Positions 6,041 to 24,059 of a stretch of 46,295 bases of DNA are shown piece by piece; the stretch's first letter is position 1; each line of letters starts with the position of its first letter. The notes below the pieces were generated by a model. The model was not told where the DNA came from. It did not search any database and was given only the letters and a program-made list of their open reading frames with translations. Both the position numbers and the translations under genes were made by a program. The stretch is from Endozoicomonas arenosclerae (GTDB lineage: Bacteria > Pseudomonadota > Gammaproteobacteria > Pseudomonadales > Endozoicomonadaceae). The stretch is from contig NZ_LASA01000101.1 in NCBI RefSeq assembly GCF_001562015.1, positions 1 to 46,295 on the forward strand, read 5' to 3'.

Positions 6041-6733
6041 TCACTGTTTCTCGCATGGCTCAGACGCTTTGGACACTACCTTAAGTTTGGGGTATTTCGT
6101 GAGTGCACTTTGCCACTCCAGCTCTACATCCTCTATGGCTTCTTCTGTTGGTTGATTGTCAGCTCCAATGTCCGTAATAGCGTTGTATTTGATGTTCATA
6201 TCCCTATCCACACTGACATCGAACCCTGATTCAATAGCCCCCTTTGCCGTGTCTAAAACACAACTCGAGTCAAAGCAGCCCAGAGGTACGACATCCGTCA
6301 CATCCTGTGACTTCAAAAAATCCTCCAGCTTTCCTTTAAAGGCCTGATCCAGTTTTTGTCCACGAGCAAGATTGACACCTTCAAAAGCATCCTGATGAGC
6401 CTTCAACATCAGCCGGGTACCTTTTTTCATATAAATTGACTGGATTAATGCATTCAACGAGGTGCCGTATTCTTCTATGTTTACATCCACATAGATGACT
6501 TGATCATTTTTAACGAAATAGTTGAGCAACTTTACCTGCTCACCCAAAACTGAACTCAGATTATGTAATGACCCTCTCCCTTCATACGCCAACTGCATAT
6601 CTATTACCAGAATGGCCACTTTTTTCCCTTGCTGTAACAGCTGCTCAATATGAGTCCTGCTTTCATCAAACCCTGCCTGAACGGCAGATACTGTGAGCAA
6701 AATCGAAAAAAAGATCAGAGATTTCATAACCAC
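6041..6733 (-). CDS. Exported isochorismatase-like cysteine hydrolase
   Basis: A 230-residue protein with a clear signal peptide (MKSLIFFSILLTVSAVQA), predicted to be periplasmic. The mature part has the isochorismatase-like fold with a complete candidate triad: Asp45 in ILVIDMQ, Lys111 in RLMLKAHQDAFEG and Cys158 in GCFDSSCVLDTAKGAIESG. This is the cysteine-hydrolase branch (nicotinamidase and related amidases). Export is unusual for this family, which is mostly cytoplasmic. The substrate is unknown; an amide or imide available in the periplasm is the simplest idea. It is unrelated in detail to the broken family member at 984-1562, which lacks the Cys. It converges with the gene at 4230. Confidence 0.7.
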   Translation of the reverse strand: MVMKSLIFFSILLTVSAVQAGFDESRTHIEQLLQQGKKVAILVIDMQLAYEGRGSLHNLSSVLGEQVKLLNYFVKNDQVIYVDVNIEEYGTSLNALIQSIYMKKGTRLMLKAHQDAFEGVNLARGQKLDQAFKGKLEDFLKSQDVTDVVPLGCFDSSCVLDTAKGAIESGFDVSVDRDMNIKYNAITDIGADNQPTEEAIEDVELEWQSALTKYPKLKVVSKASEPCEKQ

Positions 6734-6904
6734 GATTAGATAAGATAAAAACGAATCCCCCCAGGCCTGAAAATGCCAGCTCCCTGTATCGCACTCTTCA
6801 CAAGAGAGCAGAATCGACTTTCAACAGAAGGCTTGCAGATAAGCTACTACGTGTTTGAAAATAGACCATTAAACTCTGGAAAGCAGTCAAGGGTGACGCT
6901 AACA

Positions 6905-7411
6905 ATGAAAACCAATATCACACTCATTGGTATGCCGGGCGCTGGTAAAAGTACCATCGGCATTATTCTGGCCAAAGATCTGGCCTATGGCTTTCTGGAT
7001 ACGGATGTTCTCATTCAAATCAGTCACCAGAAAACCCTGCAGGAAATCGTCGATGAATCCGGCTACATGGCACTGCGAGAGATTGAAGAAGCAGAGCTTC
7101 TAAAAGTGAACCTCAAGCGTCATATCATTGCTACCGGAGGCTCGGCCATCTACAGCGAAGCCGCCATGATGCATCTGGCCGAAGAATCCGTCATTGTTTT
7201 TCTGGATCTGGATCTGGAGCAAATCCGCGAGCGCATTCATAATTTCGATACCCGCGGAATAGCAAGATCAGAAAATCAAACCATTGAAGATCTGTTTGCA
7301 GAGAGAGTAAAGCTGTATAAGAAGTATGCTGATGTAACCATTGATTGCCGAGAGCTGGATCAGGACAGTCTGGCTCTTGAAATTATCAAAAAGACTGAAG
7401 CCCTCCTCTAA
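6905..7411 (+). CDS. Shikimate-kinase-like P-loop kinase
   Basis: Starting at the ATG at 6905 the protein has 168 residues, close to AroK/AroL (about 173). It has the Walker A loop GMPGAGKST (9-17), LDTDVLIQ with Asp32 and Asp34 as in shikimate binding, ALREIEEAEL (Arg58), ATGGSAIY (76-83) and a lid segment DTRGIARSE. Classical shikimate kinases have GGGA where this has GGSA, so it may be a paralogue with another small substrate. An upstream in-frame ATG at 6773 would add 44 residues with no family similarity and is rejected. A degenerate second copy of its 3' end lies at 8892-9201. Confidence 0.7.
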   Translation: MKTNITLIGMPGAGKSTIGIILAKDLAYGFLDTDVLIQISHQKTLQEIVDESGYMALREIEEAELLKVNLKRHIIATGGSAIYSEAAMMHLAEESVIVFLDLDLEQIRERIHNFDTRGIARSENQTIEDLFAERVKLYKKYADVTIDCRELDQDSLALEIIKKTEALL

Positions 7412-17852: not shown

Positions 17853-17879
17853 AAGACCTGACTCCGTGCGTCAGGTCTT
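17853..17879. terminator. Intrinsic terminator of glpT, possibly shared with the minus-strand peptide gene
   Basis: AAGACCTGAC (17853-17862) pairs perfectly with GTCAGGTCTT (17870-17879) around a 7-base loop, 28 bases after the glpT stop. An A-run precedes it and AAACTTTT follows. The minus-strand gene ending at 17886 is 7 bases away, so the hairpin can act in both directions. Confidence 0.8.
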
Positions 17880-17885
17880 AAACTT

Positions 17886-18032
17886 TTATAAAGTCAGTCG
17901 TGACTGCTCTTTAGTATTCAGACTATGCGGCGCCTTGCCAGCAAAGTCTACTTTTCTGGAAGTTTCCACAGCTTTCAAAACGGCCTGCATCAGCGGGCTC
18001 TGCTTTTGAGTCATGGTGTCATTATTTCTCAT
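17886..18032 (-). CDS. 48-aa peptide gene in the cupin/HEAT cluster, possible precursor peptide
   Basis: A short gene with an excellent AGGAGGT Shine-Dalgarno seven bases before the ATG at 18032, 15 bases downstream of the last cupin/HEAT gene, on the same strand and ending at a shared terminator. The translation begins MRNNDTMTQKQSPLMQAVLK, has an amphipathic helical middle and a polar C-terminus ending HSLNTKEQSRLTL. It has no Cys, no signal peptide and no double-Gly leader motif. The strong ribosome site and operon position make it a real gene in my view. A role as the substrate of the neighbouring cupin-type proteins is an inference; a small regulator or partner is an alternative. Confidence 0.65.
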   Translation of the reverse strand: MRNNDTMTQKQSPLMQAVLKAVETSRKVDFAGKAPHSLNTKEQSRLTL

Positions 18033-18047
18033 GTTGCACCTCCTGAA

Positions 18048-18971
18048 CTATGGAGTCACCCTGTTCATTGCCTGGCCGTGACCAGGCAAAACAGACAGTC
18101 CAAAATACTGAGTCATCCCTTCGTGAAACTGTTTAACAGAAGTTCTCACATATAGATGTGGATCTTTTGCGCCCTGCTCGGCCAGCTGATCAATGTCCTC
18201 TGGATGAGATTGCATCAAAGCATGCCAGGCTGCAGCCCGAACACGCATGAAAGGATGGCGAGTGGCGATTTGCATCAACACATCCCTACAGTTTTCATCA
18301 CCAAAATTGGCAATGGCATGCAGCATCATATCCTTGGCGAATATAGAAACAGCATGGCCATTGACCCGATAGGTTTTTGAATCAAAAGAGCACTCTGCCA
18401 CAGCCATCTGCCGCTCTCTCTGAACCACATTAATAGAAACAGAAGTGGCTTCAGGTGGATACTGCAGGTGAATATCGGTGCCTGCTGTAAACTGCATCAC
18501 CTTGCCCTGGGTCAGAAAAGTGGATTCCACAAAACGGAAGTCTGCCTTCTCACCCAGAACACCACTGCAGCTTTCAAAATCAAACTCGTAAATATCGGTC
18601 TTATACCCTGGTCCGGCATAACCACAAGTGATGAAATTGATATCGTGATTATGAAGGTAGTTGTACTGCCCCTTCTCAATGGTATTGAAGTTATCTGGCC
18701 AAACCACAATCCTGAAGACATAGTCTTTACCAAAACGCGGAATAAACGTCGTTGGCAGTAAACTGTGAGGCGCCTCAAGTGTTGCAAAGCTCTTCAGGTA
18801 ATCACAGAGATATTCCGCCAGGAACGCTCTGTTATTGGAAAGACGATGCAGATAAGGACAGAGAGGCTCCAGATCTTCACCACTCTTTATAGGCGTTGAC
18901 TCACAGATTTCGTAGAAGTCATCCAGAGAGATGGCCTTATCATCGGAGTCGTATTCAAAAGTTCTAACCAT
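18048..18971 (-). CDS. Cupin-like (cysteine-dioxygenase-like) protein with C-terminal HEAT repeats, copy B
   Basis: A 307-residue cytosolic protein, a clear paralogue of the gene upstream (18990-19880). Residues 35-65 form a helical LHRLSNNRAFLAEYLCDYL segment. From about 83 a cupin-type barrel has YVFRIVVWP, LHNHD with His107 and His109, a TCGYAGPGYKTDIYEFD strand, then TAGTDIHLQYPPE with His168 and SVSINV. The His-x-His plus distant His pattern and the order of strands recall the three-His iron site of thiol dioxygenases. Residues 238-275 carry HEAT-type helices (HPFMRVRAAAWHALMQ, DPHLYVRTSVKQ). GAGGTG precedes the ATG. The reaction is unknown; a metal-dependent oxidation of a peptide or thiol is a guess. 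Confidence 0.65.
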   Translation of the reverse strand: MVRTFEYDSDDKAISLDDFYEICESTPIKSGEDLEPLCPYLHRLSNNRAFLAEYLCDYLKSFATLEAPHSLLPTTFIPRFGKDYVFRIVVWPDNFNTIEKGQYNYLHNHDINFITCGYAGPGYKTDIYEFDFESCSGVLGEKADFRFVESTFLTQGKVMQFTAGTDIHLQYPPEATSVSINVVQRERQMAVAECSFDSKTYRVNGHAVSIFAKDMMLHAIANFGDENCRDVLMQIATRHPFMRVRAAAWHALMQSHPEDIDQLAEQGAKDPHLYVRTSVKQFHEGMTQYFGLSVLPGHGQAMNRVTP

Positions 18972-18989
18972 GACGCCACCTCACTTGCC

Positions 18990-19880
18990 TTATTGACTGG
19001 AAGCAAAATCCACAGTTTGCTTCTCAATATTGCGTTTAAGGGTATTGGCATAGGCTCTGACATGAGCATGCTCATCAGTCATAGCTTTTGAGAACAGATA
19101 ATCCCTGTCAGCGGGATTGAACTCAATCAGGGCATGCCAGGCTGCCGCCCGCACCCGCATAAAAGGGTGTCTCTGGGCTATATCAACCAACCTGTCTTTA
19201 CTGTTTTCATTTCCCAGTGTGCAAACGGCATTGAAAACCGATTCCTGAACGGGAATTTTGATGGAATGCCCCATCACCGTCCGTTTTTCCATATCAAATG
19301 AGCACTCGACTATATTTTTCCGGGCCTCACGCTTGATCACATTCAGGGATACAGACAGCTCTTCAGGTGGATACTGAATATGCATATCTGTGCCTGCCTT
19401 GTACTTCATGATTTTACCGGGAGGCAGCATGGTGTTTTCCTGAAATTCAAGATCCACCTCTTCACCCACCAGCCCGGTGCAATGCTCGTAATCGAAACTG
19501 TAAATATCTGTGTGATAACCAGAACCGGTATAGCCACAGGTTATGAAACCCACATCATGATTATGGGGGTAGTGATAGAGCAGTTGATTACCCCACTCAG
19601 CCGGATCAATGACTGGCCAGATAACAATGCGGAAAATATAGGACTTACCAACTCTCGGCATAAACACAGGAGGTAAAAAGCTATGCTCTGGCTCATTCAA
19701 CTCATTCAGGTAATCACAGAAATACTGTTCCAGAAACTGCCTGTTGTTTGCCAGATGCTTCAAGGCAGGCACCAGTTTTTCCAGGTCTTCTTCTGACTGA
19801 AGGTCTGACCTGTCACACAGACTATAGAATTCATCCAGAGGTATGGCCTGCTCTGTCTTGCACTCAATTGTTCTAACCAT
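18990..19880 (-). CDS. Cupin-like (cysteine-dioxygenase-like) protein with C-terminal HEAT repeats, copy A
   Basis: A 296-residue protein sharing its start (MVRTIEC versus MVRTFEY), architecture and key residues with the downstream copy B. It has LKHLANNRQFLEQYFCDYL near 40-58, YIFRIVIWP at 81-89, YPHNHD with His106 and His108, TCGYTGSGYHTDIYSFD, GTDMHIQYPPEELSVSLNV with His167, and HEAT-type HPFMRVRAAAWHALIE. The pair therefore arose by tandem duplication. An AGGAGGTG Shine-Dalgarno lies five to six bases before the ATG and the gene is 18 bases from copy B. Conservation of the three His in both copies supports metal binding. No signal peptide is seen. The family is not recognised by name. 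Confidence 0.65.
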   Translation of the reverse strand: MVRTIECKTEQAIPLDEFYSLCDRSDLQSEEDLEKLVPALKHLANNRQFLEQYFCDYLNELNEPEHSFLPPVFMPRVGKSYIFRIVIWPVIDPAEWGNQLLYHYPHNHDVGFITCGYTGSGYHTDIYSFDYEHCTGLVGEEVDLEFQENTMLPPGKIMKYKAGTDMHIQYPPEELSVSLNVIKREARKNIVECSFDMEKRTVMGHSIKIPVQESVFNAVCTLGNENSKDRLVDIAQRHPFMRVRAAAWHALIEFNPADRDYLFSKAMTDEHAHVRAYANTLKRNIEKQTVDFASSQ

Positions 19881-19913
19881 GGTACACCTCCTGACAAAGC
19901 GATTGAGAAAACA

Positions 19914-20759
19914 TCATGCCGACACAGACAGTGCCATCAGTGTTTTATCAGCCAGTTGACGTATGTATTGATCACCATCGTGCACCAGAGCTGCTTCCAG
20001 CAAGGATCGTCCTCGCTCCTCATCCAGCTTGCAAAGACTTGAAAAAGCCTCCCAGCGAACAAAAGGCGCATAGCGATCACTTTTAGCAACCCCTTCGAGA
20101 CACTCGATACTCTTGCTTGAACCTGATAACTCTCCGATCAGAGAAGCTGCAAGCTGACTCCGTGAATCGGCCACTTGAGTTGCAATCAAACGGGTAGGTT
20201 GAAAAGTCTCCCGGTTGTAAGTCCATGTCAAAGGCCCCCTGGCTTCTGAGTGAGCGGTTAGCAGGCAGGCCTGCTGTTTGATGCCATCAAGCAGCGGCAC
20301 TGAATTATAAGCTTTGAAAATATGAGCGTGATAAGGCCCCAGAATCACGGTTGGACTGTTTTTCGCAGGAACCGGCATTTCGTAGATATGGTTTATGTCT
20401 ACTTTGGTTTGCAGCACTGGGATATCAATGGATTGATTGCCCAGGTTGACCAAAAGCAAGTCGAACTCGTTGGCACAGACTTCATGGCTGTCCGAAGGTT
20501 CTCCCAGACCGTTGCAAAAAACCAGGGAAAGATTGAAATCCCCTTTGCTGTACAGGTAGTTCTGATCAAGAAAAGGCTTTTTCTCTGCGGAGGTTTCTTC
20601 GGAAATATCTTCTGCAACACATTGAAGCAATTGAGGAACGGTTGACGAGTCGATCATCTCTGATAACCCGGCCAGTTGGGAGAACTGATACCCATCCTGA
20701 GCCATTATCTGCTCTGCCCGAGCAATCAGTTGATCTTGAAAATTACTATTTACATTCAC
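19914..20759 (-). CDS. Divergent third member: cupin-like protein with HEAT repeats
   Basis: A 281-residue protein starting at GTG 20759 with AGGAGG eight bases upstream; the overlapping ATG at 20755 is out of frame. It is the first gene of the four-gene minus-strand group. The middle part (FNLSLVFCNGLGEPSDSHEV, NEFDLLLVNLG, ILGPYHAHIFKAYNSVP, ACLLTAHSEARGPLTWTYN) looks like the same barrel order as copies A and B but lacks the HNHD motif. It offers instead a His-Ala-His pair later in the barrel. The C-terminus (YAPFVRWEAFSSLCKLDEERGRS and HDGDQYIRQLADKTLMAL) gives two HEAT-type repeats. It may be a non-catalytic partner or recognise a different metal. The function is unknown. Confidence 0.55.
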   Translation of the reverse strand: MNVNSNFQDQLIARAEQIMAQDGYQFSQLAGLSEMIDSSTVPQLLQCVAEDISEETSAEKKPFLDQNYLYSKGDFNLSLVFCNGLGEPSDSHEVCANEFDLLLVNLGNQSIDIPVLQTKVDINHIYEMPVPAKNSPTVILGPYHAHIFKAYNSVPLLDGIKQQACLLTAHSEARGPLTWTYNRETFQPTRLIATQVADSRSQLAASLIGELSGSSKSIECLEGVAKSDRYAPFVRWEAFSSLCKLDEERGRSLLEAALVHDGDQYIRQLADKTLMALSVSA

Positions 20760-22738: not shown

Positions 22739-23980
22739 ATGAAAAAGCATCTCCTTGCTGGATGTGCACTGACTCTGCTGGCACAAACCGTTCATGGTTT
22801 CCATCAAGTGTCCATGGAATATGATGCTTATGTGCTGGATGCCAAAGACCGGCTCACAGACTTTGTCACTTCACCCGCCAGTTATGAGTACGTAAAAGTC
22901 GGCATCGTCTCCATCAGTGTCGATTTTCATGGGATGATGCACACCGCACAGCTTTTTGCCCACAAAGCCGGTACCTATCAATTCTCAAGCCCCGACACTC
23001 AAAAACAGACCGAAGAAGCCAGTTCACTGACCCAGATGCTGGGTACATTGGCCTCATGGGCTTTCAATGCCGTCTCAGAACCCTTTACAGGCATGCAGCC
23101 GGAAGCGTCAACACCCACTCGAAATCAGGACTTGGGAGCCAGCCGCTTTGTCGATATCTCGCCCACAGACAACGCCATCGTCAACCTGAAACATCTGACG
23201 GGCACCAATACACTGGCTGACTTTTTTATTTTCGCCCCTAAAAGTTCCGAGTGGGTTCAATTCGATATGGAGCAGATGCAACAGGGCTTCCCCCAGCTTT
23301 CCAACAAGCAGATCTGCTGCAGAATTCCCGGCTCGCTCCCTCTTTGCAGATCTTATAGAGCAGAACAGAAACAAGAGAAAGACGACAAATCTCCGGAATC
23401 AACCCGTCCCGGCTGGCACGAACTGTCAAAAGCCTATGAGTTGCCTACCGGGGGCATTGGGGGAGCCAGCCTGCTCTACGACACTGAAATGTATGTTTTT
23501 CAGCAACAGGGATCACAGCGTGTAAAACCTAAAACCCGAGACCATCTGGAAACCTGGCTTCCCTCCCCGCCGAAAGTGATCATTGGCCTACCAGGATTAT
23601 TTAACCAGACCGCCATGTCACTGTCTGGAAGAGTGACCGTCACAGGCTGGTTTCCGGAATGGGTCGCAACACCTGGTTTGTATAGCACGGACTACCTGTT
23701 GGCCAGCTCACACCCGAACCTGGCGGGAGACGGACTCGATACCCATCATGACTTTGTCGTTTACTCCGCTATACAGAACCCCTACCTGCACGAACAGAGC
23801 AAGCTTTACTCTTCACAAACTACTCCCTGGAGACTGATCGTTCTTCCCTGGGGCAATAAATTTCAGGTGGTACTTCTTTCTCGAGATTTCACTTCCAACA
23901 AGCCCATAACCGTTGAAAGTGCGCCAGAGCCGAATGTTGATATTGATGAGCTGAAAAAAGCGCTTGATGACATTAATTGA
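22739..23980 (+). CDS. Secreted hypothetical protein, 413 aa
   Basis: The protein starts MKKHLLAGCALTLLAQTVHG, a clear signal peptide from the ATG at 22739; a TTG two codons earlier is less likely. The mature part is about 390 residues and contains a Cys-Cys pair with a nearby Cys (ICCRIPGSLPLCRSY), a Gly-rich GGIGGASLLYDTEMY and repeated WLPSPP/TGWFPEW-type segments. No family is recognised. It sits between rpe and gph, which are neighbours in related bacteria, so it is an insertion into a conserved block. Periplasmic or extracellular location is likely. Confidence 0.65.
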   Translation: MKKHLLAGCALTLLAQTVHGFHQVSMEYDAYVLDAKDRLTDFVTSPASYEYVKVGIVSISVDFHGMMHTAQLFAHKAGTYQFSSPDTQKQTEEASSLTQMLGTLASWAFNAVSEPFTGMQPEASTPTRNQDLGASRFVDISPTDNAIVNLKHLTGTNTLADFFIFAPKSSEWVQFDMEQMQQGFPQLSNKQICCRIPGSLPLCRSYRAEQKQEKDDKSPESTRPGWHELSKAYELPTGGIGGASLLYDTEMYVFQQQGSQRVKPKTRDHLETWLPSPPKVIIGLPGLFNQTAMSLSGRVTVTGWFPEWVATPGLYSTDYLLASSHPNLAGDGLDTHHDFVVYSAIQNPYLHEQSKLYSSQTTPWRLIVLPWGNKFQVVLLSRDFTSNKPITVESAPEPNVDIDELKKALDDIN

Positions 23981-24059
23981 CTGCAACCTGTCAATCACAA
24001 CTCAAATCCTCCTATAATCTCACTGTCTTTTATTTCCTCCCTCTGGATATCTGAAAACA

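Follow-up and report, generated by a model that had tools for sequence, protein, structure and literature searches.

A cluster of four minus-strand genes in the 46,295-nucleotide contig NZ_LASA01000101.1 of Endozoicomonas arenosclerae (the window) probably encodes a small pathway of the kind that makes ribosomally synthesised and post-translationally modified peptides (RiPPs), in which two related proteins, A and B (and likewise A and C), form a peptide oxidase acting on the product of the fourth gene, P. This reading is carried by the operon itself, by the fold and metal triad of B, by the loss of that triad in A, by the frequent presence of a peptide gene beside the homologous enzymes, by the purifying selection seen in several related peptides and, in most relatives, by a leader-like motif followed by a variable tail in the peptide. 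In the proposed mechanism, P would be the substrate peptide, and B and its duplicate C would be mononuclear non-haem metal enzymes, most likely dependent on Fe(II) and O2, that oxidise it. A would pair with B or C as a dead paralogue, and the HEAT domains of all three proteins would hold the peptide, probably by its leader, presenting its C-terminal part to the iron; C may work on a second site of P.

The genes follow one another in the order A-B-C-P with intergenic gaps of 33, 18 and 15 bases (Table 1). A first-pass annotation of the window had described four closely spaced minus-strand genes, each with a strong Shine-Dalgarno sequence; the spacing stands, as does an AGGAGG before A, B and P, but C is preceded by the weaker GAGGTGG. 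Its overall observation of open reading frames (ORFs), gaps, HNHD motifs and HEAT-type ends is confirmed. An AGGAGG within 17 bases upstream is found for 2 of the 230 window ORFs of 40–80 residues, P being one; the second, a 61-residue minus-strand frame at 23813-23998, lies outside the cluster. The G+C content of the cluster is 0.466, compared with 0.483 in the rest of the window.

Table 1. Features of the four-gene cluster, in window coordinates.
Feature	Position	Strand	Remark
Gene A, 281 aa, GTG start	19914..20759	-	CDO-type cupin fold without His triad, C-terminal HEAT helices; predicted pseudoenzyme
Gene B, 296 aa	18990..19880	-	Three-His cupin, thiol-dioxygenase fold (~aa 9-207), HEAT helices (~aa 210-295)
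B codons 106-108, His-Asn-His, first two predicted metal ligands	19557..19565	-	
B codon 167, third predicted metal-ligand His	19380..19382	-	
Gene C, 307 aa, B duplicate with triad retained	18048..18971	-	51% identity to B over 278 residues
C codons 107-109, His-Asn-His	18645..18653	-	
C codon 168, third His	18468..18470	-	
Gene P, 48-aa peptide, proposed substrate	17886..18032	-	
Intrinsic-terminator-like hairpin (10 pairs) and T-run, 3' of P	17853..17879	-	

B is predicted to form a thiol-dioxygenase-type cupin barrel, plant cysteine oxidase (PCO) and ADO being among its structural matches, and the models of both B and A finish in five helices. Pfam HEAT_2 matches A, B and C with E values of 5.1e-6, 0.0022 and 9.6e-7, respectively, of which only that of C passes the curated cut-off; models and matches together bear out the earlier description of three cupin-like proteins with C-terminal HEAT repeats. 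The HNHD motif noted previously in two of the proteins is present in B and C alike, followed by GTDMH in B and GTDIH in C. All three His residues are retained in 91/91 aligned B-type rows, window B and C among them, as are Trp88 and Gln169 (91/91); these counts are taken from the alignment columns rather than from a strict regular expression, which recovers 78/91, and the alignment omits 2 of 85 locus rows, those longer than 340 residues. The structural check that the first-pass annotation had proposed, whether a cupin barrel and a metal site are present, thus brought no refutation. The model of A also adopts the cupin/cysteine dioxygenase (CDO) fold, and its His triad is gone, which makes A a catalytically dead paralogue as judged from the predicted structure.

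A profile comparison places the B triad opposite the CDO ligands with weak scores (probability 7.8% and E 0.0012 in global mode, 13.7% and 0.002 in local mode); the match is weak because thiol dioxygenases are sparse in the genomes (genome-derived ones in 2/94 and 1/150) and the CDO profile holds only 6 sequences. In this weak alignment the Ser-x-His-x-Tyr of thiol dioxygenases faces Ser178-x-Asn180-x-Ile182 of B, with Asn at position 180 in 90/91 rows and Met, Ile, Leu or Val at position 182 in 91/91. The fold, of the CDO/3MDO type, and the metal triad would also suit a role of B and C as small-molecule thiol dioxygenases, the peptide then being a regulatory or attenuator ORF; the replacement of this His and Tyr, as far as the weak alignment can be followed, and the lack of a listed Pfam CDO match speak against such enzymes, and we consider this explanation, to whose attenuator part we return below, highly improbable.

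Searches of sequence families return only HEAT and chance-level matches for A, B and C in Pfam and NCBIfam (E up to 10), PHROGs (E 1) and PADLOC (0.01). Neither CDO_I (PF05995) nor a PCO/ADO family is listed by Pfam for the three proteins at E up to 10, where the HMMER filters remove most of what lies above about 0.1, and no DUF692 match is listed in Pfam. No curated NCBIfam cut-off is reached by A, B or C, and the PHROGs matches are at chance level at most; P matches nothing in Pfam or NCBIfam. By sequence, B alone has no match in the PDB and its profile finds only chance, helical and designed-repeat chains; the A profile finds HEAT/ARM-type repeat chains only. At E values up to 0.01, no PADLOC anti-phage defence model matches A, B, C or two fused A proteins described below. 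This result and two plasmid-borne homologues led us to drop the idea of a phage or defence origin; the phage collection itself was not searched.

Scanning of genome contigs turned up 184 relatives, and 79 loci were defined from the 80 best. These are mostly from Sphingomonadales, and include Nevskiaceae, Lysobacteraceae, Rhodanobacteraceae, Alteromonas, Photorhabdus, Candidatus Paraburkholderia kirkii, Niveispirillum, Parvularculaceae, Mucilaginibacter and metagenome-assembled genomes (MAGs) of Blastopirellula and Verrucomicrobia; the Verrucomicrobia copy (L020) is placed inside Nevskia in the B tree and may be a binning error. Two relatives are on plasmids, of Alteromonas and Vibrio. The Vibrio locus (L016, 5294-6850) encodes a 225-residue B homologue without a HEAT part near restriction-modification genes, accompanied by a divergent A-like gene and a 59-residue ORF. 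In genome samples that each include the window's own genome, homologues occur in 5/94 relatives, 2/369 genomes of the class and 15/398 of the phylum, 12 of these 15 belonging to one family, presumably Sphingomonadaceae in the wide sense, in which B is present in 85/239 genomes.

A is recognised in 72/79 loci, 60 by profile (E <= 0.01) and 12 more by blastp clustering, directly upstream of B and commonly overlapping it. The proposal that the motif-poor protein serves as a partner is strengthened accordingly by a degenerate paralogue encoded beside B at nearly every locus. A is partial in L042 and L083, both cut by contig ends. The seven loci in which A was not resolved comprise six G+C-rich ones (0.64-0.70) with long overlapping or opposite-strand ORFs, and L092, a Mucilaginibacter MAG in which 213- and 272-residue ORFs precede B upstream of 7971 and a precursor-like stretch is readable.

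Profiles of three peptide types (E <= 0.0043) detect a peptide ORF at 65/79 loci, 15 of which had supplied training peptides, and eight more were found by eye (L020, L024, L030, L037, L065, L071, L075 and L089), making 73/79 in total; the question raised by the first-pass annotation, whether homologues occur with a small peptide gene, is therefore answered with a usual yes. In L090 the peptide is upstream and read in the opposite direction. The 43 peptides collected have 37–62 codons (one was typed only in part). At 6300-7050 of the Niveispirillum locus L093 and 6350-6920 of the Lysobacter locus L050, three peptide ORFs with differing tails lie ahead of A. Among the 239 genomes of the single family, 85 have B, 72 match the A6 peptide profile, 69 have both, 3 the peptide only and 16 B only (Fisher p 2.6e-40, kinship not corrected for). 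Of the 72 matches, 67 precede B on its own strand by no more than 3 kb, at a median distance of 991 bases, which leaves space for A. Fourteen of the 16 B-only genomes contain a family-like ORF with a ribosome site at the expected place, as judged by eye with no control set. In the sample of 94 relatives, strong matches of the P type (E <= 3.3e-16) occur in exactly the 5 genomes that have B, and four weaker ones (0.013-0.086) look like chance; since the training sequences of the profile came from the window, from three of the four remaining B genomes and from other loci, it is the 89 negatives and one genome, G005, that give this result its weight. In the G005 locus (L014, 8582-9503) A and B are eroded to fragments and the downstream peptide is intact, the same protein as in G006 and G007 (G005 versus G007: dN 0, dS 0.33).

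Codon comparison gives a ratio of non-synonymous to synonymous substitution (dN/dS) of 0-0.36 in nine of 11 peptide pairs tried, one of the others not being found and one having a saturated dS. Several homologous peptides are thus under purifying selection, window P not being among the usable pairs. Such selection on the peptide sequence argues against an attenuator, as does gene order: the peptide stands behind the enzymes in one group of loci and before them in the other. These groups correspond to two ARRANGEMENTS in the 91-row B tree, one of 17 rows (support 90/61, not strong), in which the peptide follows B and which comprises the window together with Endozoicomonas, Sphingomonas deserti, Photorhabdus and P. 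kirkii, and one of 72 rows, in which the peptide precedes A wherever it was found. Window B pairs most closely with window C (100/100) and the Photorhabdus and P. kirkii copies form a separate group (100/99), so that B has been duplicated at least twice. The Endozoicomonas loci L012 (10730-12804) and L013 (10148-12211) have the order MFS gene, B1, A, B2, peptide; in L011 (4670-6780) a distance of 3.7 kb separates MFS-B1 from A-B2-peptide. A conserved 69-residue ORF downstream in Endozoicomonas relatives (L011 12701-12910, L012 7925-8134, L014 9834-10043) seems unrelated to the peptide.

The peptides themselves share a motif near the N terminus, (P)-D/E-L-D/E-x-x-V/I-G/S/A-x-x-G-S/A, in most rows of a set of 39 from which window P, L022a, S036 and S086 were left out. 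The motif score of 632.6, raised by close kinship among some of the 39, compares with a mean of 338.9 and a maximum of 365.5 in 25 shuffled sets, and some rows were misplaced by the procedure (for example L022b, L037, L071, L093b, L130, L131, L132 and L135). A first run on 29 peptides, several of them placed inconsistently, had scored 363.6 against a shuffled maximum of 274.6 at width 10 and 425.8 against 295.3 at width 12. Beyond the motif the tails differ: those of the Sphingomonadales type are acidic and rich in Val and Ile with a conserved Tyr, several others have GG and then Cys, and those of clade I carry GRxxGFGC. The S. deserti peptide (L017, 9882-10181), detected by profile alone (E 2.3e-14) and located some 1 kb after B, extends more than 50 residues beyond the GFGC motif, unlike its relatives, and a sulfotransferase gene on the other strand lies between it and B. 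Window P weakly resembles the Photorhabdus peptide, which occupies the same gene position (score 44, equalled by 2/5000 shuffles), and that of P. kirkii (score 32, 9/5000).

Cys is present in 20/43 peptides collected across all types, and it is absent from window P and from 47/52 Sphingomonadales-type peptides, so that Cys sulfination is unlikely as the general reaction; hydroxylation, desaturation or oxidative ring closure would be more likely, to judge from peptide composition. The same count bears on a possible oxygen or redox sensor, in which B would act on the peptide, or else on a partner protein, in the way that ADO and PCO oxidise an N-terminal cysteine, the mark controlling stability or signalling and not yielding a secreted product. 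PCO and ADO do appear among the structural matches, and the A-B pair of Sphingomonadales sits in a recurrent chromosomal neighbourhood without the exporter clusters found elsewhere, yet the scarcity of Cys in these peptides, together with the exporters and RiPP-type genes of other lineages, makes a sensor quite improbable.

Those neighbouring genes hint at peptide maturation or export. A LANC_like gene lies at the Mucilaginibacter locus L037, as does an ABC exporter bearing a C39 peptidase domain; the Alteromonas plasmid locus (L015), Stenotrophomonas (L047) and Sphingomonas Leaf33 (L064) are accompanied by genes for HlyD and/or ABC transporters, and similar transporter genes were found by clustering near L022, L050, L071, L090 and L093. 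An SDR gene follows the peptide in Photorhabdus, P. kirkii and S. deserti, the last with a Cupin_8 gene in addition to the sulfotransferase. In Photorhabdus and P. kirkii an N-terminal JmjC-like part that retains HxD...H is fused to A; against Pfam PF08007 it reaches 21.5 bits in P. kirkii (cut-off 22) and E values of 0.012 and 0.018 in two Photorhabdus proteins, and that of P. kirkii has no PDB match by sequence. The window operon has no transporter, LANC, SDR or JmjC-like companions of these kinds; the three JmjC_2 matches of its genome lie elsewhere, the best being, we presume, the usual ribosomal oxygenase. The exporters near several homologues, the hydrophobic peptide tails and the metal site lost in A would also fit a bacteriocin-like or signalling product that A, B and C bind as immunity, chaperone or export-handling proteins rather than as enzymes. 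The thiol-dioxygenase fold and the invariance of the three His, Trp88 and Gln169 in B argue for catalysis, and we regard such a binding role as unlikely.

Several observations weigh against a peptide oxidase acting on P. Judged by its sequence, window P is the weakest link of the substrate assignment: its best motif position, VETSRKVDFAGK, is at the expected place and scores at chance level (2318/5000 shuffles as good), it does not match the Endozoicomonas peptides (score 21 each; 2087/5000 and 1430/5000 shuffles as good), and it does not have the LGFGC end of its relatives. The second-sphere residues replaced in the weak CDO alignment mean that the chemistry is not readable from sequence. No peptide was found by profiles or by eye in the complete loci L019, L021 and L023, that of L092 is doubtful, the two further loci lacking one (L042 and L083) are truncated at contig ends, and no peptide passed the filter in two of the 16 B-only genomes (L129 and L139). 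Of the 72 peptide matches, five are not beside B: three come from genomes without B, a fourth sits on a different contig from B and the fifth at a distance of 40 kb. The window operon contains no exporter or protease gene, and no exporter clusters were seen among the (unannotated) neighbours of the Sphingomonadales A-B pair; most antibiotic clusters are unlike such a recurrent chromosomal neighbourhood.

On balance the peptide-oxidase pathway is retained, the first-pass inference of a metal-dependent oxidation with a motif-poor partner being supported, and, with slightly less assurance, its generalisation also appears likely: a widespread new class in which a CDO-fold enzyme with a dead HEAT-bearing paralogue oxidises non-Cys residues of a leader-bearing peptide, with at least two independent duplications and, in some lineages, an extension by a JmjC-like oxygenase and an SDR. 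If true, the His residues of a CDO-type iron site would serve mostly Cys-free peptides, which would be new both as enzyme chemistry and as a class of peptide. Peptide genes of this length are easily overlooked by annotation, and A, B and C fall below every curated NCBIfam cut-off despite the abundance of B in one family. Three or four short genes in Escherichia coli would suffice to test the proposal directly.

The first-pass annotation knew of no described system with this layout, and the open-access literature (subscription papers and preprints not covered) yielded no fitting system and no paper combining cysteine dioxygenase, RiPP and precursor peptide. Thiol dioxygenases (CDO, 3-mercaptopropionate dioxygenase, PCO and ADO) are known to oxidise cysteine, cysteamine, mercaptopropionate or N-terminal cysteine. 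B has their fold and their His-x-His-then-His site in common, but the cluster differs from them in having no listed sequence-family match, a replaced His and Tyr in Ser-x-His-x-Tyr, a C-terminal HEAT part, and an adjoining dead paralogue and peptide gene. Phycobilin lyases and deoxyhypusine hydroxylase, HEAT proteins with large substrates, have repeats related by profile (4d4z and 5n3u; CpcF weakly), and the cupin part is without match there.

Hydroxylases of the PbsQ, BpmG and PF08007 type are 2-oxoglutarate-type enzymes. Cupin-like/JmjC hydroxylases, PbsQ and BpmG, are described in biphenomycin-type RiPP clusters (PMC12257519), and PF08007 proteins in RiPP-like contexts (PMC12710340). As there, a cupin-superfamily oxygenase stands beside a precursor peptide, and two lineages have A fused to a JmjC-like part; the site of B differs in consisting of three His with no HxD. 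Close in layout are the MNIO (DUF692) RiPP maturases with their partner, which, as in the pbs cluster (PMC12257519), likewise combine an iron enzyme, a partner and a short peptide gene, with extra oxygenases in some clusters. The MNIO is described as TIM-barrel-like (PMC12257519), whereas here the predicted fold is a CDO-type cupin, enzyme and partner are paralogues and no DUF692 match is listed. With a short precursor gene beside the modifying genes at most loci, a feature of RiPP pathways, the system is RiPP-like and possibly represents a new class.

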